Assembly: GCF_003010965.1 (NCBI RefSeq) | Contig: NZ_PGGM01000018.1 | Span: forward strand, 62,001 to 126,000 | Length of the DNA: 64,000 nucleotides | Direction of reading: 5' to 3' | Source: Phyllobacterium sophorae | GTDB taxonomy: Bacteria > Pseudomonadota > Alphaproteobacteria > Rhizobiales > Rhizobiaceae | Part shown: one piece after another, positions 1 to 55,285 of the stretch | Layout of the letters: every line of letters starts with the position of its first letter | Position numbering within the stretch: the stretch's first letter is position 1 | Position numbers and translations under genes: made by a program | Notes under the pieces: model-generated | What the model was told of the DNA's origin: nothing | Seen by the model: only the letters and a program-made list of their open reading frames with translations | Databases searched by the model: none

Positions 1-251
1 AGATGGCGGATGTAACGTCCTTTGGCGCTGAGAAGACAACCGGCGAGGCCGCGCGCACGGGAATATGCAACCCAGCAATCGTTGTCGTCTTCAACAATTT
101 AAGCCAGGTTTTGAGCGGGTTTCGTAGGCAGAAGCAGCAGGCACCGAGCGAACAGGTGCATCAGGGTGGTGGCCTCCCTGACCCGGCAAGGGCCTTGCTT
201 ATGAAACTGGAGGTGAACTATGCGGTATTTGCCGTTTAGCCTCACTCTGAC
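1..251. other. No confident gene
   Basis: An open frame on the plus strand (3-239) has no recognisable domain and no convincing ribosome binding site. A good Shine-Dalgarno (GGAGGTGA) precedes an ATG at 220, but that frame encodes only 28 arginine-rich residues and runs antisense to the small RNA at 252-347. Neither is called. The stretch may be the end of something that begins outside the window. Confidence 0.4.
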
Positions 252-295
252 AATGAAAAGAACCCGGACGAGTTGGTCGCTCAGCTTCCGGGTTC
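252..295 (-). terminator. Rho-independent terminator of small RNA copy 1
   Basis: A 9-bp perfect stem (260-268 with 287-295) is followed on the minus strand by TTTTCATT. The loop is 18 nt. Confidence 0.75.
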
Positions 296-347
296 AATTC
301 AACTAGTCAGAAACCGAGGGGCGGGCGGAAGCTCGCTCCTCACTCCA
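252..347 (-). ncRNA. Small RNA, copy 1 of a two-member family
   Basis: Read on the minus strand, a sigma70-like promoter is followed by a hairpin (316-341), a single-stranded linker, and a Rho-independent terminator (stem GAACCCGGA/TCCGGGTTC, then TTTTCATT). The same architecture recurs at 9262-9352. The stems are conserved, the terminator loops have diverged, and one stem pair is G-C here and A-U there. This compensatory change supports a structured RNA. Transcript ends are estimated from the promoter and terminator. The size and the CCCCTC-type pyrimidine run resemble small trans-acting RNAs of rhizobia such as the alpha-r families, but I cannot assign the family. Confidence 0.72.
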
Positions 348-353
348 ATAAGA

Positions 354-381
354 AATATAACACTTTTCCCGCTGTTTCCAA
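354..381 (-). promoter_or_regulatory. Promoter of small RNA copy 1
   Basis: On the minus strand TTGGAA (376-381) and TATATT (354-359) are separated by 16 bp. The same two boxes with the same 16-bp spacing occur in copy 2, although the spacer sequence differs. Confidence 0.65.
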
Positions 382-425
382 GCCGTATCAAATTCGACTT
401 TTGATGCATAAACGTGGACCCGATT

Positions 426-872
426 TCACAAAACCTTCTTCAGGCTATTCAAGAGGCGGTCGTGCTCGCCGTCGTCGAGCAGATGTTCAAGCTCCCCGTG
501 CGTGCTCCTCCATATCGGCGTGACTTCCGAGAGCACGCGCATGCCTTCCGGCGTCAGTGCCAGCAGCCGGCTGCGCTTGTCCGCGGGATCGGGTGTAACC
601 ATCACCAGGCCACGGCGCTCCAACGGCTTGAGTGCGGCGGTCAGTGTAGTGCGATCCATTGCCAATAAATGGGCTACGGAGCTAAGATTGGGAGGTTTCG
701 GCCGGTTGAGCGACATGAGCAGTGAAAACTGGCCATTGGTCAGATCGAAGGGCCGCATTGCATCGTCGAATCGTCGCGCCAGCGCCCGAGCAGCCCGCTG
801 GACTGCCAGGCACATACAGCTGTCGCGGACATGTATGGTCGTTTCGTAGGGTACTGAGATCGGCTTTGACAT
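426..872 (-). CDS. MarR-family transcriptional regulator
   Basis: This 148-residue protein has the MarR winged-helix layout. A recognition helix region (MDRTTLTAALKPLERRGLV) lies at about residues 72-90, followed by the DPADKRSR wing at 95-102. MarR proteins are homodimeric repressors released by small phenolic or oxidising ligands. Cys19 and Cys21 lie close together near the N-terminus, so redox sensing is possible but is only inference. The gene is divergent from the VOC-protein gene at 963. An 18-bp perfect palindrome just upstream of its start is the probable operator for both genes. Confidence 0.85.
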   Translation of the reverse strand: MSKPISVPYETTIHVRDSCMCLAVQRAARALARRFDDAMRPFDLTNGQFSLLMSLNRPKPPNLSSVAHLLAMDRTTLTAALKPLERRGLVMVTPDPADKRSRLLALTPEGMRVLSEVTPIWRSTHGELEHLLDDGEHDRLLNSLKKVL

Positions 873-880
873 GGCCTATA

Positions 881-898
881 TATGTTGATATCAACATA
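881..898. promoter_or_regulatory. Palindromic operator, probable MarR site
   Basis: TATGTTGATATCAACATA is a perfect 18-bp palindrome in the 90-bp divergent intergenic region, 8 bp upstream of the marR start codon. Its length and position fit a MarR dimer site controlling both marR and the VOC gene. Confidence 0.7.
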
Positions 899-962
899 AT
901 TGTCAACATTCAATCACGTGTGTTCGTTACAGTCCGGGTAATCATGAAAAGGAGGAGCCATC

Positions 963-1730
963 ATGACCAATCGCGGCAATTTCATTTGGTATGAACTGAT
1001 GAGCAGTGACGCGCAAGCGGCTGAAAGCTTTTATTCCAACGTGGTGGGTTGGGGCACGCAGGACTCCGGCGTTCCGAACATGAAATATACCTTGCTGACG
1101 GTTGATAGTAAGCCTGTCGCCGGGATGATGACCACACCCGAAGGCTGCAATACCGGCGTGGAGTCGATGTGGTCGGGCTATGTCATGGTCGATGATGTCG
1201 ATCAGTACGCGAAACGCGTCAAAGATGCCGGGGGCAAAGTGTCCGTCGAACCGCAGGATATTCCCAATGTGGGCCGGTTTTCCGTCGTGGCCGATCCGCA
1301 AGGCGCGCCGTTCACCTTGTTCAAGCCCTCCATGGACGAACGCGGTGATTTCCCCACCCCTCCGACTGCCGGTACGATTGGCTGGCACGAATTGATGACC
1401 AGTGATTGGAAGAGCGCGTTCGAATTCTACTCTGGCCTGTTTGGCTGGACCAAAGGCGATGCGATGGACATGGGCCCGATGGGAACCTATCAGATTGTCG
1501 AGCGTGACGGCCAGATGTTCGGCGCGATGATGAACGATCCGGAGCCCGGGGCGTCACCAGTCTGGCGCTATTATATCTGTGTGGATGATATTACGTCCGC
1601 TGAAAGCCGGCTTAAAGCCAAGGGCGGGCAAGTGCTCTTTGGTCCAGAGGAAGTGCCGGGCGGACAGTGGATATTGCACGCCAAGGATCCGCAGGGTGTC
1701 TTTTTCGCCCTGGTTGGCAATCGCGCATGA
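963..1730 (+). CDS. Two-domain VOC (glyoxalase/bleomycin resistance-like) protein
   Basis: The 255-residue protein contains two vicinal-oxygen-chelate units, at about residues 6-117 and 130-252. Each opens with a WYEL/WHEL motif and an ESFYSN/FEFYSG helix and closes with a PQG(A/V)xFxL strand. Such proteins bind metals or small hydrophobic compounds. Members include glyoxalases, antibiotic-binding proteins and unannotated enzymes, and the substrate here is unknown. AAGGAGGAG precedes the ATG closely. Its likely regulator is the divergent MarR. Confidence 0.85.
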   Translation: MTNRGNFIWYELMSSDAQAAESFYSNVVGWGTQDSGVPNMKYTLLTVDSKPVAGMMTTPEGCNTGVESMWSGYVMVDDVDQYAKRVKDAGGKVSVEPQDIPNVGRFSVVADPQGAPFTLFKPSMDERGDFPTPPTAGTIGWHELMTSDWKSAFEFYSGLFGWTKGDAMDMGPMGTYQIVERDGQMFGAMMNDPEPGASPVWRYYICVDDITSAESRLKAKGGQVLFGPEEVPGGQWILHAKDPQGVFFALVGNRA

Positions 1731-1754
1731 TCCGTATCTGCTAACGAGACAGTT

Positions 1755-1775
1755 ACAGCCTCGGTATGAGGCTGT
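1755..1775. terminator. Hairpin between convergent genes
   Basis: ACAGCCTC and GAGGCTGT form a perfect 8-bp stem with a 5-nt loop between the VOC gene and the end of amn. No clear U-tract follows, so termination activity is uncertain. Confidence 0.45.
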
Positions 1776-1778
1776 GAC

Positions 1779-3287
1779 TCATTGGAACGCCATCTCGAAA
1801 AAGCTGCGCAATTTGCGCGAGTGCAGCTTTTCGGGTGGCATTTCAGCCAGTTTCTCCAGCGCCCGGATACCAATCTTCAGGTGCTGCGCTACCTGGCGCT
1901 TGTAGAATTCCGTCGCCATGCCCGGCAGCTTCAATTCCCCGTGCAGGGGCTTGTCGGAAACACAAAGCAGCGTTCCGTAAGGTACGCGAAAGCGGAACCC
2001 GTTGGCGGCAATGGTCGCCGACTCCATGTCGAGCGCGATGGCACGCGATTGCGAGAGCCGCTTTACTGGTCCGCGCTGATCGCGCAATTCCCAGTTGCGG
2101 TTGTCGATTGTCGCGACCGTGCCCGTGCGCATGATACGCTTCAGGTCATAGCCTTCGAGCCCGGTAATCTCCGCCACGGCCTGCTCGAGCGCCACCTGCA
2201 CTTCGGCCAGCGCCGGTATCGGCACCCAGACTGGCAGGTCATCGTCAAGCACGTGATCCTCGCGCACATAGGCATGGGCGAGCACATAATCGCCAAGAGC
2301 CTGCGTATTGCGCAGCCCGGCGCAGTGCCCGAGCATCAGCCATGCATGCGGCCGCAGCACGGCAATATGGTCGGTGATCGTCTTGGCGTTGGAAGGACCC
2401 ACGCCGATGTTGACCATGGTGATGCCGGAGCCATCGCTGCGTACAAGATGGTAGGCCGGCATTTGTGGCAGCCGGCCCAAGGGTACGCCTGAGGACGGCC
2501 CTTCACCGCCGGCTTCCGTCACCAGGTTGCCCGGTTCAATGAATCGCTCATAGCCGCCGCCGCCCGCGGCCATCAGTTTGCGGGCGAGGGCACAGAACTC
2601 GTCGATGTAGAACTGATAGTTGGTAAAGAGCACATAGTTCTGGAAATGCATCGGGCGTGTCGCCGTATAGTGCGAGAGCCGGTGCAGTGAATAATCGACG
2701 CGCTGTGCGGTAAAGGGCGACAACGGCATGATGCTGTCGATGTCGTCGGTCTCATATTCCCCATTGACGATCCGGTCGTCGGTGGCCGCGAGGTCCGGCA
2801 CATCGAACAGATCGCGCAAGGGACGTGTAAATGCGTCCGCGACGGAGGATTCCACGTGGGTGCCTTCAAGGAAGGCGAAGTGGATAGGGATTGGCGTCGT
2901 CGATTCCTGAACCGTCACCGGATGGCCATGGTTGCGGATCAGCAGGCGTATCTGTTCTTCGAGATAATGGTCGAACAGGTCAGGCCGCGTGATCGTCGCT
3001 GAATATTGGCCGGGCGATGATACATGGCCAAACGCCAGGCGCGAATCGATTTGCGCATAGCTTGATGTGGAAAGCCGCACCTCTGGATAGAAGGCGCGAA
3101 AATGCATGGTGTCCCTGGCCTCGCCCTTGGCCACTTTGTCGAATGCATCGCGCAAGAACTGCGTATTGCGCTCATAAAGCGCACTCAATGCTTCGACAGC
3201 AGCTTTCGCGTCTGTAAATTCTTCGGGCTCAACATGGCGCGGCATGCTGATGGTGACAGGTTTCTTGGTTCCGATTCGCTTGTCCAT
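1779..3287 (-). CDS. amn: AMP nucleosidase
   Basis: The 502-residue product is collinear with AMP nucleosidase (about 484 residues in E. coli), a cytosolic enzyme that hydrolyses AMP to adenine and ribose 5-phosphate. An Amn-specific N-terminal domain is followed by a nucleoside-phosphorylase-like catalytic domain. The latter carries the GVGPSNAKTITDH and ALDMESATIAANG segments (about residues 284-296 and 420-432). The enzyme normally adjusts adenylate pools. The start at 3287 has a modest GGGAAG upstream. It is apparently monocistronic, and a small membrane-protein gene lies immediately upstream. Confidence 0.95.
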   Translation of the reverse strand: MDKRIGTKKPVTISMPRHVEPEEFTDAKAAVEALSALYERNTQFLRDAFDKVAKGEARDTMHFRAFYPEVRLSTSSYAQIDSRLAFGHVSSPGQYSATITRPDLFDHYLEEQIRLLIRNHGHPVTVQESTTPIPIHFAFLEGTHVESSVADAFTRPLRDLFDVPDLAATDDRIVNGEYETDDIDSIMPLSPFTAQRVDYSLHRLSHYTATRPMHFQNYVLFTNYQFYIDEFCALARKLMAAGGGGYERFIEPGNLVTEAGGEGPSSGVPLGRLPQMPAYHLVRSDGSGITMVNIGVGPSNAKTITDHIAVLRPHAWLMLGHCAGLRNTQALGDYVLAHAYVREDHVLDDDLPVWVPIPALAEVQVALEQAVAEITGLEGYDLKRIMRTGTVATIDNRNWELRDQRGPVKRLSQSRAIALDMESATIAANGFRFRVPYGTLLCVSDKPLHGELKLPGMATEFYKRQVAQHLKIGIRALEKLAEMPPEKLHSRKLRSFFEMAFQ

Positions 3288-3334
3288 CTTCCCAATATAG
3301 TGACATCACGTGACACTTGAAAAGGAGACAAAGC

Positions 3335-3499
3335 TCAAACTCTTTGCAGCGCGACGAGCAGAACGAGGCCGATGCCTCCGTTGGAGGGCGAGCGGCTCTC
3401 ATAGCTTGCGGCAAATGCTACGACCGGACCTACGAGAATGGCCGAGAAAATAAGCGCCCGCAGGAATAGCAGGGATAGATTTGTTGCCGTTCGTACCAT
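3335..3499 (-). CDS. Small membrane or exported protein (54 residues)
   Basis: An ATG at 3499 preceded by a strong GAGGGGG ribosome binding site opens a 54-residue frame ending at TGA 3335-3337. Residues about 9-30 form one hydrophobic helix ending PVVAFAAS, which could be a signal peptide or membrane anchor. The rest (SYESRSPSNGGIGLVLLVAL) contains a second short hydrophobic patch. I recognise no family. The ribosome binding site and the hydrophobic pattern are the only support. Confidence 0.45.
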   Translation of the reverse strand: MVRTATNLSLLFLRALIFSAILVGPVVAFAASYESRSPSNGGIGLVLLVALQRV

Positions 3500-3696
3500 G
3501 ACCCCCTCGCTTTCCTTGCCAGAGATTTGTTCTGTTCTGTTGCTGGGACACTAGATGCGGCGGGCTGAACGAAAGCTGAGGTACCCGTTCATCCAGCGTT
3601 CAACAAGAATTGGGAATTCCGAACCCGAACCTTGAGATCGGCATGCGGAGACCTATGTTCAGCCGTGATATCCCCCAAGATTTCATGGAGACGCTC

Positions 3697-4398
3697 ATGA
3701 CGACCCAGACAAAGCCGATCGAACTTCACTACTGGCCAACGCCCAATGGCTGGAAAATTTCCATCATGCTGGAGGAACTTGGCGTTCCCTATGAGTTGAA
3801 GCTGGTCAATATCGGCAGGGGCGAACAGTTTGAGCCATCATTCCTGAAGATCGCTCCCAATAATCGCATGCCCGCCATCGTCGATCCGGAAGGTCCGGAT
3901 GGACAGCCGATTTCGGTATTCGAATCCGGTGCGATCCTGCAATATCTTGGCCGGAAGTTCGGCAAATTCTATCCGCAGGATGAGCGCACGCGCGTTCAGG
4001 TCGAGGAATGGCTGTTCTGGCAGGTCGGCGGCTTGGGGCCGATGGCCGGTCAGGCCCATCATTTCCGCCAATATGCGCCGGAGAAGATCGAATATGGCAT
4101 CAACCGCTACACCAATGAGGTCAACCGTCTCTACGGTGTGATGAACCGCCGCCTCGAGAGTCTCGAATATCTGGCCGGTCGTTATTCCATCGCTGACATG
4201 GCTTCCTATGGCTGGGTGATTTCCCATGCCAATCAGGGGCAGGATCTGAGTGATTTCCCCAATCTGAAGCGCTGGTTTGAAGCCATTGGCGCACGCCCTG
4301 CCGTTCAGCGCGGCGTGGAGGTCGGCAAGGCGGAACGCATCAATCTCGCCAATGACGAAGAAGCCAAGAGGATCCTCTTCGGCCAGCGGGCGCGCTGA
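3697..4398 (+). CDS. Glutathione S-transferase, YfcG/Ure2-like
   Basis: The 233-residue product begins MTTQTKPIELHYWPTPNGWK. It has the thioredoxin-like N-terminal domain with ESGAILQYL (the glutathione-binding ES turn) and an all-helical C-terminal domain including SIADMASYGW. TPNGWKI is typical of YfcG/YghU-type nu-class enzymes, which reduce disulfides with glutathione. I chose the ATG at 3697 because GGAG lies 6 bp upstream and the homologous region begins here. An in-frame upstream ATG at 3685 has a weaker context. Confidence 0.88.
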   Translation: MTTQTKPIELHYWPTPNGWKISIMLEELGVPYELKLVNIGRGEQFEPSFLKIAPNNRMPAIVDPEGPDGQPISVFESGAILQYLGRKFGKFYPQDERTRVQVEEWLFWQVGGLGPMAGQAHHFRQYAPEKIEYGINRYTNEVNRLYGVMNRRLESLEYLAGRYSIADMASYGWVISHANQGQDLSDFPNLKRWFEAIGARPAVQRGVEVGKAERINLANDEEAKRILFGQRAR

Positions 4399-4416
4399 GA
4401 TTCGGAATGCTTGAAA

Positions 4417-4443
4417 CTCGTGCGCAAAGTTACTGCGCACGAG
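4417..4443. terminator. Bidirectional hairpin terminator
   Basis: CTCGTGCGCA and TGCGCACGAG form a perfect 10-bp stem with a 7-nt loop between the convergent GST gene and chrA. On the minus strand it is followed by TTTCAAG. Confidence 0.7.
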
Positions 4444-4447
4444 GCCT

Positions 4448-5857
4448 TTACGCCAATCCGATCCCCATGTGCCAGACAATGCCGGCGAGGGATGCAGCCA
4501 GCAACACCGGGATCATGCCGGCCTTGAACCAGAAGATGGCGACGACGGCGGCAAGCGTCAGCAGGAACGATGGCAGGTTGATCGAGGACAGGACCGGAAT
4601 ATCCAGCGTAATCCCATATGCTTGCCAACGGATGACCTCACCAAATATCACGTGGAGAGCGAACCATACCGCGAGGTTCATGATCACCCCGACGACTGCC
4701 GCGGTGATTGCCGACATTGCACCCGTCAGGGCCCGGTTGTTGCGAAGACCCTCGATGAAGGGCGCACCGAGGAATATCCAAAGGAAGCACGGCATGAAGG
4801 TAACCCAGGTCGTCAGGATGGAGGCAAGCGTCGCTGCCATCAATGGGGACAGCGTTCCAGGATCGCGAAATGCCCCCATGAAACCGACGAACTGCACCAC
4901 CATGATCAAGGGGCCGGGTGTCGTCTCCGCCATGCCAAGCCCGTCGAGCATTTCACCAGGCTGCAGCCATCCGTAGTTCTGGACGGCTTGCTGTGCCACG
5001 TAGGAAAGCACGGCATAGGCGCCGCCGAACGTCACCATTGCCATCTTGCTGAAGAAGATGCCGATCTGGCTGAACACGCTGTCCGGTCCCATGGTGACGA
5101 CGATTGCTGCGACAGGGGCCAGCCAAAGCAAGAGGAAGATCGCCGATACTTTCAGCGACCAGGTGAGGTTGGGCCGCGCATGGGCCGGCGCTGCTTCGCC
5201 GAGCGCCGAGTCCCGATCGGCGAGCCCGGCGCCCGCATTGCCATGGCCGCCGCCTACCTGGAACAGGGGTGAACCCGCTTTCCCGCCCGCATACCCAATG
5301 ATGGCCGCCGTCAAGATGATTAGCGGAAACGGCATATGGAAAGCGAAGATGGCAAGGAAAGCCGACACGGCTATGAGCACCATGATTTTGTTCTTGAGTG
5401 CGCGCTTGCCGATTCTTGCGACCGCTTGCAGAACGACCGCTAGAACGGCAGCTTTCAGCCCGAAAAACAAACCCTCTACGACCCCGACATTTCCGAAAAT
5501 GACATAGAGATAGCTGAGGGCAAGGATCGAAAGGAAGCCCGGAAGCACGAACAGGGCCCCCGCGACGAGGCCGCCCTTTGTCTTGTGCAGGAGCCATCCG
5601 ATATAGATGGCCAGCTGCTGTGCCTCCGGCCCCGGGAGCAGCATGCAATAGTTCAGCGCATGCAGGAACCTGTTCTCGCCGATCCAGCGTTTCTCGTCGA
5701 CAAGGATGCGGTGCATGACCGCGATCTGCCCGGCCGGGCCGCCGAAACTCAGCGAGGCGATGCGCACCCAGACGCCCACGGCCTCGCCAAAGGAAATCCC
5801 GTGACCATCGCGGACTACAGGCGCTTCTGCGACTTCGTTGCTCGCAATATCGGACAC
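4448..5857 (-). CDS. chrA: Chromate efflux transporter ChrA
   Basis: This is a polytopic inner-membrane protein of 469 residues from the GTG at 5857, with two homologous CHR halves. The first half contains SFGGPAGQIAVMH and LPGPEAQQLAIY, the second VTFGGAYAVLSYVAQ and ETTPGPLIM. ChrA extrudes chromate and confers resistance. I chose GTG 5857 because it lies one base past the chrB stop and GGAG sits 6 bp upstream. A longer frame opens at 5935 inside chrB but has no ribosome binding site. It is transcribed and probably translationally coupled with chrB. Confidence 0.92.
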   Translation of the reverse strand: MSDIASNEVAEAPVVRDGHGISFGEAVGVWVRIASLSFGGPAGQIAVMHRILVDEKRWIGENRFLHALNYCMLLPGPEAQQLAIYIGWLLHKTKGGLVAGALFVLPGFLSILALSYLYVIFGNVGVVEGLFFGLKAAVLAVVLQAVARIGKRALKNKIMVLIAVSAFLAIFAFHMPFPLIILTAAIIGYAGGKAGSPLFQVGGGHGNAGAGLADRDSALGEAAPAHARPNLTWSLKVSAIFLLLWLAPVAAIVVTMGPDSVFSQIGIFFSKMAMVTFGGAYAVLSYVAQQAVQNYGWLQPGEMLDGLGMAETTPGPLIMVVQFVGFMGAFRDPGTLSPLMAATLASILTTWVTFMPCFLWIFLGAPFIEGLRNNRALTGAMSAITAAVVGVIMNLAVWFALHVIFGEVIRWQAYGITLDIPVLSSINLPSFLLTLAAVVAIFWFKAGMIPVLLAASLAGIVWHMGIGLA

Positions 5858-5858
5858 G

Positions 5859-6677
5859 TTACGCTCCGGGCTTTCGATTGGGCCAGTTGTGTGTCTCGTC
5901 CGTAGCATCGCGGCACCATCGGTAGAATGCGTCATACAGCGTCAGGCCGGCTTCGAGTTGTTCGAGATCGTCCGCGAACATGCGTGACAGGCCGAGAGAC
6001 GCCGCAAGCAATCCGGGCGCTTCGGGGGCGAGGTCGGGCCGGGCGGTGTCCGCGCCGCGCACGATGGTGGCAAGCCTCGACAGCGGTTCGCTGGTCAGGC
6101 CGAATTCTTCGATCATCACGTCGAATGTACAGAGTTCGTCCCGATGGCTCCAGAATACATCCTCGATATCGAAGGGTGCGGCATTGAACCGGTCTGCCAC
6201 TGCTTCCACCTCCGCAGGCGTCACGTACAGGAAGACCGCATCCGGATCGACGAAGCGGCGGATCAGCCAAGGACAGGCAATCCTGTCGATTTTCGGCCGT
6301 GCACGGGTCACCCAGACCGTTCGTCCCTTCTGATCCAGCGCAGGCAGGCGCGACACCGGGACCGCGGGAAGACCCGCCGTGATCCAGGTTTCATAACCTC
6401 CGCCGAGCGTTTCCGCAGGCACGCCATTGTAACGCAGCAGGGCCGCCGTTCCCTCGCTCAGTTTCTTGCCTTGCTGGCAGATGATGACTGCCCGCTTGCC
6501 CGCAAGCTCATGAACCCAGGATCCGGCGTCCCTGTGGGAGCGCCTGCGCGAGCCGGGAATCAAGCGCTGATCCAAGGCAAAATCCTCGTCGATGCGAACA
6601 TCGATGAGTACGGGGCTGCTCGGGGTTCCGATCAACCGTGCCAATTTGTCGTGAGAAATAGTCGTGGTCGAAGACAT
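5859..6677 (-). CDS. chrB: Rhodanese-ChrB fusion, chromate resistance protein
   Basis: The 272-residue product starts MSSTTTISHDKLARLI, with GGAGGGA just upstream. Residues about 8-105 are a rhodanese domain with the active-site loop CQQGKK. Residues 125-270 are the ChrB C-terminal domain (VTRARPKIDRIACPWLIRRF, then FDVMIEEFGL). ChrB proteins regulate or support ChrA-mediated chromate resistance. The rhodanese fusion is a known architecture, but its sulfur-transfer role in chromate resistance is inferred. It overlaps nothing and is followed by chrA after one base. Confidence 0.88.
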   Translation of the reverse strand: MSSTTTISHDKLARLIGTPSSPVLIDVRIDEDFALDQRLIPGSRRRSHRDAGSWVHELAGKRAVIICQQGKKLSEGTAALLRYNGVPAETLGGGYETWITAGLPAVPVSRLPALDQKGRTVWVTRARPKIDRIACPWLIRRFVDPDAVFLYVTPAEVEAVADRFNAAPFDIEDVFWSHRDELCTFDVMIEEFGLTSEPLSRLATIVRGADTARPDLAPEAPGLLAASLGLSRMFADDLEQLEAGLTLYDAFYRWCRDATDETHNWPNRKPGA

Positions 6678-6731
6678 TTCGCGTCCCTCCGTCAATTCGG
6701 TTTTTCTGGACGCGATACTTGGGCATGACGC

Positions 6732-6759
6732 CTCGTGGGGAGATCGCAATCCCCATGAG
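6732..6759. promoter_or_regulatory. Inverted repeat upstream of chrB
   Basis: CTCGTGGGGA (6732-6741) and TCCCCATGAG (6750-6759) form a 10-bp inverted repeat with one mismatch, 55 bp upstream of the chrB start. It may be an operator or a leader hairpin of the chrBA operon. Confidence 0.4.
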
Positions 6760-6773
6760 CATAAGATTGGCAT

Positions 6774-7700
6774 GAAAAGGAATTATGTCAAGCAAACCGT
6801 CATCGTGGATTTTCCGGATTTTGATCCAATGCCGGTATTGCCATGCGGAAATCGACGGTACCCCGGTCAACTCGCCGTATGGAACCGCAACCACCGACTC
6901 CCGGCCGCAAGGCGTCCGGAGGTCAACTTGCAAACCCGTTGAGACGTCTGGAGCGGTTGCACTCAAATTCTGCCGGAAAGAACCCGGTGCAAGGTCAAGG
7001 GATTTGGCAAGGTCGATGCCCTTCCATCTTCCTGGCCGAAGCCGGATGGATTTGGCCCGAGTTTCACCCTGCCCACTGAATTGTCCGCAATTCTGCGAAA
7101 TGCGGATATTTCGGCCAGCCAGCTTGTCGGTTGGCCAGGCAACCAACGGCAGGATTTCCGGCTGGCGGCCGACCACTTTGCCGGGCGGGTTTGGACGATG
7201 GAAAGGCATCGGCCTCGCCACCTTCCGCGTGCCTTGTCTCGCCATTCGGGAAACAGAACTGAATGAATAGGAGTGCAAACCACTCCAGTAAAAAGGGCAG
7301 CCATGGTGGGAATTCCATGACTGCCTGTTTTTTTGCCCATAACCAGCGAAGGATCTGTTCGGGCCATTTGGTCCTGCATTTGCCTGGCCAAGGCAATAGA
7401 GGTCTCGGCCAATTCTCAGGAAAGAAAAACAATTGGGCGTTTTCCATTCCTGACCCCCCGGGAACGACATGTCAGGCTTTGCATGCAGGGAGGGTACGCA
7501 CACAAACGACTGGTTTACCTCAAGTACGCAACATCGGCAGGATAAAAGCTTTCAATATTTCGGCATTTCAAAAAATGAGTTCACGCTGAAAGCCAAAACA
7601 TAGGGGAAAGTGCCAGTTCTCGCAATTAGACCTTAGTCTAATCGATTGAATTTACGTTTTCGCGATCCGTTTGCACGGTTGGGTAAATCCGCTTGAGCAT
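6774..7700. other. Gene-less, hairpin-rich intergenic region
   Basis: No protein gene is recognised across about 0.9 kb between chrB and the GFA-family gene. Long open frames on both strands have no ribosome binding site or domain. The sequence is full of inverted repeats. Examples are 7014-7027 against 7197-7210 (GATGCCCTTCCATC and GATGGAAAGGCATC), GGAGTG/CACTCC at 7270-7286, and TTAGAC/GTCTAA near 7627-7642. A terminator lies at 7296-7334. It may be a mosaic of intergenic repeats or may encode a noncoding RNA. Confidence 0.5.
7296..7334. terminator. Strong, apparently bidirectional terminator
   Basis: GGCAG-C-CATGG pairs with CCATG-A-CTGCC (7296-7325). On the plus strand TGTTTTTTT follows, and on the minus strand CTTTTT follows. 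No gene on either strand ends here. Confidence 0.7.
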
Positions 7701-8102
7701 CTATAAATGCCGAACTTCGGCCGGTCTGTTCTCCCAATGATCATGCCTCCCATCCTGATATTCGACCGGAGCCGCAAGCAACGCCTCGGGTGTCAGGTCA
7801 TCCAGGCAGGCTAGATTGATCGCGTAGAATACGCCCGTATCCTCCATCTCCCCGCGGCCAAACGGCTTGACGCCGCATGTTTGGCAAAAGAAATGAGCGA
7901 TGGTTCTTCCACCGAACCGGTATTCGATCAGTTGATCAATTCCAGCGGTCATTCGCAGTGCTTCGCCGCCAATGAAGGCTTTCCAAAAGCGGCCCTTTGT
8001 ACACGATGAACAGTTGCACTTGCTTGTGCCTTGATCGAGGTCAATATCCGCCTCGAATTTGATAGCACCGCAATGACAACTGCCGTGATAGGTCTTGTTC
8101 AC
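7701..8102 (-). CDS. GFA/CENP-V family zinc-binding protein
   Basis: The 133-residue product has the GFA zinc fold, with CHCGAI near the N-terminus, then CNCSSCTKG, then FFCQTCGVKPF. It belongs to the family named after glutathione-dependent formaldehyde-activating enzyme. Most members have no proven reaction, so the substrate is unknown. GTG 8102 is preferred because GGAGGAG lies 5 bp upstream. The longer TTG start at 8114 would swallow that site. Two tandem palindromic operators sit immediately upstream. Confidence 0.85.
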   Translation of the reverse strand: MNKTYHGSCHCGAIKFEADIDLDQGTSKCNCSSCTKGRFWKAFIGGEALRMTAGIDQLIEYRFGGRTIAHFFCQTCGVKPFGRGEMEDTGVFYAINLACLDDLTPEALLAAPVEYQDGRHDHWENRPAEVRHL

Positions 8103-8121
8103 GCGCTCCTCCAACTTTGAA

Positions 8122-8151
8122 TAACCAATCAGTTAAATAACTAATTAGTTA
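8122..8151. promoter_or_regulatory. Tandem operator upstream of the GFA gene
   Basis: TAACTAATTAGTTA (8138-8151) is a perfect 14-bp palindrome. TAACCAATCAGTTA (8122-8135) is an imperfect copy whose start is 16 bp away. The pattern suits a TetR-type dimer pair, but no tetR gene lies next to it. Confidence 0.6.
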
Positions 8152-8291
8152 AATACGTGTTCCGCTCGACCACGTCAAGTTGTCGTGATGATCCTTTTCG
8201 GTCACAAATTTTCCTTGGAAATCGCCACTTCCGCTATCAGCCTGAGCCAGCGAGAATCCTCGCTGTTCGATCCTGGAGATGGAGATGAGAA

Positions 8292-9182
8292 ATGGGTGGT
8301 CACATCACGCGCCGCGAAGCACTGATTGGATCGGTGCTCGCTATACCGGCGCTATCACTGCGGATCAAATCAACGCAGGCCGCACCACCGGGCAGGGTGG
8401 ATCTCGCTGCCGCCTTCAAGACATTGGAGGAGAAAACCGGTGCGCGCCTTGGAGTCTCGGCACACGATACCGGCAGGGATAGCCGCATCGAGTATCGTGA
8501 GAATGAGCGCTTTGCCATGTGTAGCACGTTCAAGTTTCTCGCCTCAGCGGCGGTTTTGGCGCGCGTCGATCAGAGGCAGGAACAGTTGGATCGAATGATC
8601 CTGATCAAGAAGAGTGATCTCGTTGCCTATTCGCCGGTGACGGAAAAATACGTCGGCAAGCCAATGTCCATCGAGGCGATTTGCGAGGCCGCCGTCACCT
8701 TGAGCGATAACACAGCCGGCAATCTCATGCTTGATACGCTTGGCGGGCCAAAGGGGCTGACGAAATATGCACGCAGTCTCGGAGACGCAACGTTCCGCCT
8801 TGACAGGTGGGAAACCGAGCTCAATGAAGCAAAGCCCAGCGACGCGCGCGATACAATCACGCCGGCGGCAATCCTGAAGGATATGCAGAAGACGGTGCTT
8901 GGCGACGCGCTGTCCAAGTCATCGCGTGATCAACTCGTGGAATGGCTGCTTGGCAATAAGACCGGCGATAAGCGTTTGCGCGCAGGGCTGCCAAAGGATT
9001 GGAGCGTCGGCGACAGGACAGGTACCAGCGATAGCGGCATGGCCAACGATCTCGCCGTGATATGGCCTCCGGACCGCAAACCCATTCTCCTTGCAGTCTA
9101 TCTCTACGACCCGAAGGGCACGGCCGACAGCCGCAATACCATTCATAAGAAGGTCGCGGCACTGGTGGCGGAGAACATCTGA
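8292..9182 (+). CDS. bla: Class A beta-lactamase, probably Tat-exported
   Basis: The 296-residue product has the class A serine beta-lactamase motifs in order: CSTFKF (Ser70-x-x-Lys73), SDN (130-132), WETELNE (Glu166 and Asn170), and RTG in place of the usual KTG at 234-236. The N-terminus carries TRREALIG followed by a hydrophobic stretch, consistent with twin-arginine export. The RTG variant is known from carbenicillin-hydrolysing PSE/CARB enzymes, but the spectrum here is not predictable. GGAG lies 7 bp upstream of the ATG. No ampR-like regulator is adjacent. Confidence 0.92.
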   Translation: MGGHITRREALIGSVLAIPALSLRIKSTQAAPPGRVDLAAAFKTLEEKTGARLGVSAHDTGRDSRIEYRENERFAMCSTFKFLASAAVLARVDQRQEQLDRMILIKKSDLVAYSPVTEKYVGKPMSIEAICEAAVTLSDNTAGNLMLDTLGGPKGLTKYARSLGDATFRLDRWETELNEAKPSDARDTITPAAILKDMQKTVLGDALSKSSRDQLVEWLLGNKTGDKRLRAGLPKDWSVGDRTGTSDSGMANDLAVIWPPDRKPILLAVYLYDPKGTADSRNTIHKKVAALVAENI

Positions 9183-9261
9183 ACCGCGCTGGACGGGCCT
9201 CTCGCACTTTGTGCCCGGCTTTATTCAACGTTGCGTTAGTTGCAGCCCCTTCTCACCCTGG

Positions 9262-9352
9262 AATTGAAAAGAACCCGGACAGGCTGGCATGGCTTGTTCC
9301 GGGTTCTATTCATCTTCTAGGAAAGAGGGACGGGCGAAAGCCCGTTCCTCGC
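9262..9352 (-). ncRNA. Small RNA, copy 2 of a two-member family
   Basis: This is the paralogue of the RNA at 252-347, again on the minus strand. The promoter boxes are followed by a hairpin (9325-9350, loop TTTC), the linker CTTTCCTAGAAGATG, and a terminator with the same 9-bp stem GAACCCGGA/TCCGGGTTC followed by TTTTCAATT. It sits between the convergent ends of bla and the DUF2147 gene. Sequence in the terminator loop is unrelated to copy 1 while the stems are kept, which argues for selection on RNA structure. Confidence 0.72.
9263..9306 (-). terminator. Rho-independent terminator of small RNA copy 2
   Basis: The stem is 9271-9279 with 9298-9306, followed on the minus strand by TTTTCAATT. 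Confidence 0.75.
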
Positions 9353-9358
9353 TCCAGA

Positions 9359-9386
9359 AATATAGCAGCTTTCGATCCATTTCCAA
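9359..9386 (-). promoter_or_regulatory. Promoter of small RNA copy 2
   Basis: TTGGAA (9381-9386) and TATATT (9359-9364) on the minus strand are separated by 16 bp, as in copy 1. Confidence 0.65.
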
Positions 9387-55194: not shown

Positions 55195-55285
55195 GGAGAG
55201 GTGGCCGAGTGGTCGAAGGCGCTCCCCTGCTAAGGGAGTAGGGCTCAAAAGGCTCTCGAGGGTTCGAATCCCTTCTTCTCCGCCA
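55195..55285 (+). tRNA. tRNA-Ser (anticodon GCT)
   Basis: The 91-nt gene folds as a class II tRNA. The acceptor stem GGAGAGG pairs with CTTCTCC, the anticodon stem-loop CTCCCCTGCTAAGGGAG presents GCT, and a long variable arm (AGGGCTCAAAAGGCTCT) is present. The T arm contains GGTTCGAATCC, followed by discriminator G and an encoded CCA. It reads AGC/AGT serine codons. Confidence 0.97.

Follow-up and report, generated by a model that had tools for sequence, protein, structure and literature searches.

A candidate family of type I toxin-antitoxin-like modules with a predicted cationic beta-hairpin peptide in Phyllobacterium sophorae and its relatives

Introduction

Small-protein mRNAs overlapped at their 3′ end by a convergent antisense RNA are known from the Bacillus type I toxin-antitoxin systems BsrG/SR4 and TxpA/RatA (PMC8167048, in excerpt; for BsrG/SR4 also PMC8309996, in excerpt). 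Here we describe a locus with a predicted 3′ overlap of this kind in 64,000 nucleotides (nt) of Phyllobacterium sophorae DNA (RefSeq assembly GCF_003010965.1, contig NZ_PGGM01000018.1, positions 62,001 to 126,000 of the forward strand; hereafter the window), where a first-pass annotation had read two paralogous minus-strand small RNAs, here called copy 1 and copy 2. Our best reading of the sequence comparisons is that copy 1 belongs to a new family of modules that resemble type I toxin-antitoxin systems and encode a cationic beta-hairpin peptide. It differs from its Bacillus counterparts in an antisense terminator placed within codons of the open reading frame (ORF), in its multi-helix leader and in the predicted beta-hairpin fold of its peptide, and it comes from another phylum.

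In the hok mRNA, pairing of the 5′ and 3′ ends keeps the message shut until its 3′ end is processed (PMC8167048, in excerpt). A closed mRNA is likewise predicted for the module from covariation and folding, with wobble pairs that show no strand bias; however, the predicted antisense RNA of the module covers the 3′ half of the message rather than a mok start region, and its peptide was not recognised in the family searches made. Hok/Sok copies occur on plasmids, phages and chromosomes, as do copies of the module.

AapA1 of Helicobacter is a 30-residue peptide with essential positive charges, a cis antisense RNA (IsoA1) and several paralogues, and membrane-associated type I toxins carry an alpha-helical transmembrane domain (both from excerpts of PMC8309996). 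The module resembles AapA1/IsoA1 in peptide size and charge, cis antisense RNA and paralogues, but its peptide has an alternating beta pattern where AapA1 is an alpha-helical membrane peptide, and it lacks the alpha-helical membrane segment of the membrane-associated toxins in general. Ldr/Rdl and Ibs/Sib are peptide/antisense modules that also occur in multiple tandem copies, and differ from the present module in sequence, leader, peptide fold and antisense position. The rhizobial alpha-r small RNAs are likewise intergenic RNAs of Hyphomicrobiales with a terminator; their families are included in Rfam, whereas the module gave no Rfam match at gathering score in the window.

Results

A conserved small-protein gene

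Conservation among aligned copies extends beyond the antisense terminator into a Shine-Dalgarno (SD) sequence and start codon on the plus strand. The first-pass annotation had overlooked that the strand opposite its elements holds an ORF preceded by this SD sequence, with the terminator stem inside the ORF (Table 1). We collected 199 distinct ORF copies, mostly from Phyllobacterium and also from other Rhizobiaceae, plasmids and phages (161 genome loci, 20 named contigs, 5 plasmid, 10 phage and 3 viral-contig places), a set that includes some degenerate ORFs and at least one likely chance match (the second ORF in phage locus L179). The ORF has 28 or 29 codons in 166 of them; a protein of 28–29 amino acids (aa) fits the short protein gene expected of a type I toxin, type I toxins being typically under 60 aa (PMC11264685, in excerpt).

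Coding constraint was estimated from 65 independent pairs drawn from 166 distinct sequences with the commonest spacing. Omega was 0.33 over codons 2–27 and 0.29 (bootstrap 0.24–0.35) outside the RNA stems, against 0.53–1.64 in the other five frames, and differences outside the stems fell at third codon positions 179 times, at first positions 106 times and at second positions 70 times. These comparisons indicate that selection acts on the protein encoded by positions 220–306, the translation of which is a prediction.

Net charge was +3 to +7 in a set of 172 peptides, which showed a beta periodicity (moment 0.73 at 170 degrees, 0.23 at 100 degrees) and no membrane helix, no 17-aa window exceeding a hydropathy of 0.61. 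AlphaFold2, run on one 30-aa homologue with 20 others, placed strands at residues 6–15 and 18–27 (mean predicted local distance difference test score 80, predicted template modelling score 0.31). The peptide is thus predicted, from modelling, to be a cationic beta-hairpin.

A convergent antisense gene whose terminator lies in codons

On the minus strand, both elements are present as first read: TTGGAA-16-TATATT, hairpin, linker, and a terminator with stem GAACCCGGA/TCCGGGTTC followed by T4, identical in the two copies. The boxes appear in a promoter scan at 381–354 and 9386–9359, with TG preceding the second box in each, but are not significant by themselves, since 7 such sites were seen in 10 kb where 5.4 were expected. 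Folding of 99-nt stretches beats shuffled sequences for both copies (z −3.3 and −6.4). Chance is an insufficient explanation for the elements, because genome, peptide and leader searches turned up more copies in the same genome (contigs C45, C47 and C4, plus a deleted one on C22), and nhmmer found 124 distinct DNA-level copies within the loci fetched up to then.

Across the family, at least 11 of 13 box bases, scored against the family’s own consensus, occur in 127 of 197 copies, as against 2 of 197 control windows farther downstream, with a spacing of 16 or 17 in 119 of the 127. For comparison we used the alphaproteobacterial promoter consensus CTTG..CTATAT. The boxes persist also in copies with an altered SD region and drift in distant copies. 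A pairing of the 3′ TTCCAAG with the SD was considered and rejected, as TTCCAAG stays promoter-like where the SD region changes.

Wobble-pair asymmetry, the count of plus-strand G-U against minus-strand G-U cells, was used to assign structures to strands. Codon and stem counts refer to the 176 of 199 ORFs that fit the motif. In the terminator stem, the pair between codon positions 15.3 and 24.3 comes in four types and is Watson-Crick in 174 of 176, as is 16.3/23.3 in 172 of 176; the covarying changes are mostly silent. Imperfect pairs comprise 35 minus-strand G.U (plus-strand A.C), 4 plus-strand G.U and 12 other mismatches (p 3e-7), or 33 against 4 when identical stems are counted once; selection therefore sees the minus-strand RNA. 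Codon choice differs along the same stretch: arginine at codon 14, adjoining the U-tract, is AGR in 118 of 120, the stem codons Arg-16 and Arg-24 are CGN in 349 of 350, and Lys-13 is AAA in 131 of 153. Since it is in the minus-strand RNA that this terminator stem is conserved, the codons for KRTRT...RV double as an antisense RNA terminator. The promoter boxes and the minus-selected terminator together indicate that an antisense gene exists, its transcript being predicted. The claim of paralogous minus-strand RNAs with a conserved promoter and terminator thus holds, on the box counts and the minus-strand wobble, and that of selection on RNA structure is borne out by covariation and wobble counts among homologues.

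Plus-strand RNA structures and predicted closure of the mRNA

The leader upstream of the SD was described by covariance model R1, with a hand-set structure on a 14-sequence alignment that replaced a poor automatic RNAalifold structure. The model gave 112 matches in 100 chosen loci, with 92.9% of cells paired and 313 cells changed on both sides, a count that 0 of 500 shuffles reached and that collapsed in slid controls; wobbles in this alignment, which was fitted to the plus-strand model, numbered 223 on the plus strand and 46 on the minus strand. Its loops GAGCCAGC and GANGATGGGC (window 118–214, plus strand, and relatives) are well conserved; to judge from their sequences they could pair with each other (GCC/GGC), and a ligand or protein site in them is possible.

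A start-codon hairpin between codons 2 and 5 has 76 plus-strand and 16 minus-strand wobbles over four positions tested, with TGG..CCG in 20 of 176 ORFs and CGG..CCA in none. The hairpin in the 3′ untranslated region (UTR) is the first hairpin of the earlier reading; the base pair said to be G-C in one copy and A-U in the other is indeed there. It had been taken as a feature of the minus-strand RNA, but its counts favour the mRNA: of 135 distinct hairpins, 101 have a GNRA loop when read on the plus strand and 8 when read on the minus strand, and wobble cells number 254 on the plus strand against 116 on the minus strand (only hairpins above a stem-score threshold were counted). Leader, start hairpin and 3′ hairpin thus appear to be kept mainly as plus-strand RNA.

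The pyrimidine-rich stretch proposed to pair with SD sequences has likewise to be relocated: the anti-SD sits on the plus-strand mRNA, adjoins the 3′ hairpin and matches the SD of that same mRNA. Among 193 copies considered, both sites were found in 123 (115 distinct; the regular expression mis-picked some sites, for example in L166). The bases that precede GGAG form Watson-Crick pairs with those that follow the 3′ CTCC in 95, 75 and 62 of 115 at three positions, where 65, 45 and 36 were expected, a covariation reached by 0 of 5000 shuffles at each. The match can be seen by eye in distant copies (CCGGAG with CTCCGG, CTTGGAG with CTCCAAG). Among 127 folded mRNAs, each required to contain GGAG and CTCC, the predicted probability of SD:anti-SD pairing exceeded 0.5 in 107, and the predicted probability that the SD is unpaired had a median of 0.006 in the presence of the 3′ tail and of 0.46 in its absence. 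Folding thus predicts that the SD is shut while the 3′ end of the mRNA is present.

Decay of copy 2 and of other modules

Copy 2 gave no match to leader model R1. A complete module, L079 in genome G007, is syntenic with it, both flanks matching, including the end of a beta-lactamase-like gene. Relative to L079, copy 2 lacks about 146 nt, namely leader, SD and start, whereas its antisense gene at 9267–9386 is 113/120 identical (94%) without a gap. It follows that there are intact copies and that copy 2 is an orphaned antisense gene. The ORF directly upstream of copy 2 (8292–9182, plus strand) presumably encodes a class A beta-lactamase.

The 124 DNA-level copies were scored as 103 intact and 21 not intact, a rough split, in which the intact L079 counted as not intact, L002 (copy 2) and L037 counted as intact through a TTG in another or shortened reading, and L164, L149 and L103 in the non-intact group are deficient only in the usual stop. 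An antisense promoter score of at least 10 was found in 94 of the 103 and in 17 of the 21; the four non-intact copies without it are three dead ORFs (L158, L154, L005) and the second L028 copy, an open ORF without SD.

On a Roseibium plasmid (L071, 2446–4090), the end of a group II intron reverse transcriptase is about 75 nt ahead of a module copy in which leader and start codon are missing and the antisense promoter boxes are kept; the intron may have landed in this module.

Distribution and annotation

Peptide searches (E up to 0.1) gave matches in all 20 Phyllobacterium genomes searched, 2 to 12 each, and in 3 of 39 other genomes, and close relatives occur in named Phyllobacterium, Rhizobium, Tianweitania and ‘Rhizobiales bacterium’ genomes (37 loci). 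At E up to 0.01 the leader model had matches, the weakest possibly by chance, in 29 of 121 genomes of the family (26 of 109 genera); a peptide ORF follows the leader in 26 of the 29 kept loci, and the other three (L216–L218) score at most 36 bits. A set of 240 genomes across the class, our own included, gave one other weak match (29.7 bits). Tandem arrays comprise four copies about 366 nt apart (G111:C2:699418-700613) and three about 357 nt apart in G126.

Searches by tblastn (E up to 10) returned 43 plasmid records, 41 of them covering at least 80% of the query, with Sinorhizobium, Roseibium, Labrenzia, Agrobacterium, Rhizobium, Microvirga and others as hosts, and 14 phage records (10 Rhizobium, 2 Ochrobactrum, 2 unnamed), all covering at least 80%. 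Plasmid and phage copies extend to other families, such as Stappiaceae and Methylobacteriaceae, and IMG/VR gave three loci. Matches were listed for 20 of the 43 plasmid and all 14 phage records, and six plasmid and eight phage records were fetched. Among the 20 plasmid and 14 phage matches listed, no annotated gene lay under the peptide match, a statement that is weak for plasmids because the PLSDB gene table is incomplete, and one phage record was unannotated; in two Agrobacterium rows of a DNA search a hypothetical protein overlaps the leader.

Phage records L175–L182 carry unannotated modules with ORF and leader, mostly near genes of unknown function. Modules on phages may be cargo or serve counter-defence.

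Searches against known families

Three peptides found nothing above cut-off in Pfam, NCBIfam, PADLOC or PHROGs; the phage peptide had a single weak match each in PHROGs (E 0.07) and NCBIfam (E 4.4). No Rfam family matched the module in the window at gathering score, and none was credible at lax E-values in the stretches searched, so that the first-pass annotation was right to name no family. Low-scoring Rfam names (STnc400, SorY, RsaE, miRNAs, BSnc120) were judged to be chance; BSnc120, at 22 bits (L182) against a cut-off of 114, is non-specific, with 0 of 121 genomes over cut-off and weak matches in 6 of 14 control genomes. No paper on the peptide/antisense module was found in the literature searched.

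Features of the window

A conserved motif upstream of the leader, CAACCCAGCAATCGTTG, was found by regular expression in 67 of 199 copies, 127–190 nt upstream of the start codon.

Table 1. Coordinates of module features in the window, with the evidence for each.
Feature	Positions	Strand	Evidence
Conserved motif CAACCCAGCAATCGTTG ahead of the leader; may be a promoter or operator for the peptide mRNA	68..84	+	upstream alignments
mRNA 5′ leader: closing stem P1, hairpins P2, P3 and weak P4, up to the SD	118..214	+	covariance model R1, 78 bits; covariation
Shine-Dalgarno GGAGGT	209..214	+	sequence; GGAG-like before start in copies listed
Small-protein ORF MRYLPFSLTLTMKRTRTSWSLSFRVQFN, 28 aa, ATG to TAG	220..306	+	homologues, omega 0.29
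3′ UTR hairpin, GGAA (GNRA) loop	316..341	+	sequence, wobble counts
Anti-Shine-Dalgarno CACTCCAA, complementary to SD region	341..348	+	covariation; predicted SD occlusion
Predicted antisense RNA 1 promoter, TTGGAA-16-TATATT	354..381	-	promoter scan; family box counts
Predicted antisense RNA 1, ~92 nt	255..348	-	extent from promoter and terminator positions
Antisense RNA 1 terminator hairpin, stem 287-295 with 260-268, within ORF	260..295	-	covariation, wobble
U4 tract of antisense terminator, spanning codon 13 (AAA) and the first base of codon 14	256..259	-	codon usage
Predicted antisense RNA 2 promoter	9359..9386	-	promoter scan
Predicted antisense RNA 2, partner gene lost	9267..9355	-	inferred extent; 9267-9386 against syntenic L079
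Copy 2 hairpin, GAAA loop on plus strand	9325..9350	+	sequence
Copy 2 peptide-gene remnant, open from TTG, TAG just upstream, without SD or leader	9240..9320	+	sequence

Elsewhere in the window, a chrB-a RNA motif (Rfam RF03078, 78 bits) occupies 6675–6759 on the minus strand, at the start of the minus-strand ORF 5859–6773, which we take to encode a chromate-resistance protein resembling ChrB and which adjoins a presumed ChrA-like transporter gene (4448–5935). A tRNA gene (Rfam RF00005, 57 bits) lies at 55195–55282 on the plus strand.

Discussion

We propose that a complete copy, such as copy 1, is a two-gene module. On the plus strand, a short mRNA would consist of the covarying leader, an ORF of 28–29 codons, a hairpin that is usually GNRA-looped and a 3′ anti-SD, which would pair with the mRNA’s own SD and keep the full-length message shut. 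On the minus strand, a promoter beyond the 3′ end would drive an antisense RNA of about 92 nt across the 3′ UTR and the 3′ half of the ORF, ending at the terminator that the ORF codons encode. Pairing of this RNA with the 3′ half of the mRNA would inactivate the message; loss of the antisense RNA and trimming of the mRNA 3′ end would free the SD and allow the cationic beta-hairpin peptide to be made. Copy 2 would be the orphan antisense RNA that remained after loss of the peptide half. What the sequences themselves show is that both genes are conserved and the ORF is constrained as coding sequence, along with the RNA structures, their assignment to strands and the decay of copy 2; transcription, mRNA trimming, antisense repression and toxicity are steps that we infer.

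The small-protein gene, the convergent antisense gene with its own promoter and terminator, the predicted closure of the mRNA, the many paralogues, the presence on mobile elements and the copies that have lost the protein half but kept the RNA half together point to a type I toxin-antitoxin-like module. On the sequence evidence it is reasonably probable that the module works like a type I toxin-antitoxin pair, which is not to call it a proven member of that class.

Several observations weigh against this view of the module. For the antisense gene, the terminator has only U4, a terminator scan that needs at least 5 T in 8 called neither antisense terminator, and 9 of the 103 ORFs counted as intact, of which some may be diverged forms, have weak promoter boxes. 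For the leader, P4 is weak, one pair being unpaired in 81 of 111, the 19 pairs with changes on both sides are only mildly above the 15.8 of shuffles (23 of 500 shuffles reached 19), and the alignment leans to the plus strand because of the model to which it was fitted; nor is the 3′ hairpin exclusive to the plus strand, given its 116 minus-strand wobbles. For closure, a fourth SD/anti-SD position lacks covariation (17 against 14.5), wobbles at the three covarying positions show no plus bias (19 plus, 26 minus), and truncation opened the SD by more than 0.3 in only 69 of 127 mRNAs. Predicted closure is also partly built in through the required GGAG and CTCC, which makes the covariation of the flanking bases the stronger support.

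The best-surviving alternative keeps the same anatomy and makes the peptide a non-toxic regulator, for example one that binds RNA or membranes, with its dose set by the antisense RNA. A conserved, charged beta-hairpin without a membrane helix would suit such a role, but the multi-copy tandem arrays, the plasmid- and phage-borne copies and the copies that have lost the ORF yet kept the antisense gene are more in line with addiction modules, and we regard this alternative as unlikely, if worth keeping in view.

Far less probable is the first-pass proposal of stand-alone, trans-acting minus-strand small RNAs with an incidental ORF. It accounts for the conserved minus-strand promoter and terminator, and could hold for orphans, since copy 2 and others persist without a working ORF; for copy 1, however, it is contradicted by the coding constraint (omega 0.29) and sits badly with the SD, the tight ORF length and a leader and 3′ hairpin kept mainly on the plus strand. 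The minus-strand RNAs are instead antisense to a conserved small-protein gene.

A leader peptide or attenuator of a downstream gene, suggested by a short ORF behind a structured leader, is less probable again: the next gene in the window is convergent (426–872, minus strand), and in 12 annotated phage and plasmid loci, the phage loci partly related, the next annotated gene lies on the same strand in 8 and on the opposite strand in 4 and mostly encodes a hypothetical protein. A non-coding dispersed repeat, such as a repetitive extragenic palindrome or miniature inverted-repeat transposable element, with an accidental ORF, would explain the dispersed, intergenic, palindromic stem, but we give it next to no credence against an omega of 0.29, silent-site covariation and two strand-specific RNA signals.

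Conclusions

Returning to the toxin-antitoxin-like reading, we suggest more tentatively, and with rather less than even confidence, that the module defines a new mobile toxin-antitoxin class on chromosomes, plasmids and phages of Hyphomicrobiales, with a cationic beta-hairpin toxin, toxin codons that encode the terminator of the antitoxin RNA, a new structured leader RNA, and orphans such as copy 2 that would serve as antitoxins to related modules carried in by phages or plasmids. The module also offers a clean natural case in which the same DNA is under simultaneous selection for codons on one strand and for a terminator on the other, and wobble pairs tell the strands apart. If our reading is true, many rhizobia-like genomes hold a peptide/antisense module that is absent from the annotations examined, presumably because its gene has just 28 codons and, as the module is found on phages and plasmids too, it would bear on plasmid upkeep and on phage-host conflict in plant-associated bacteria.

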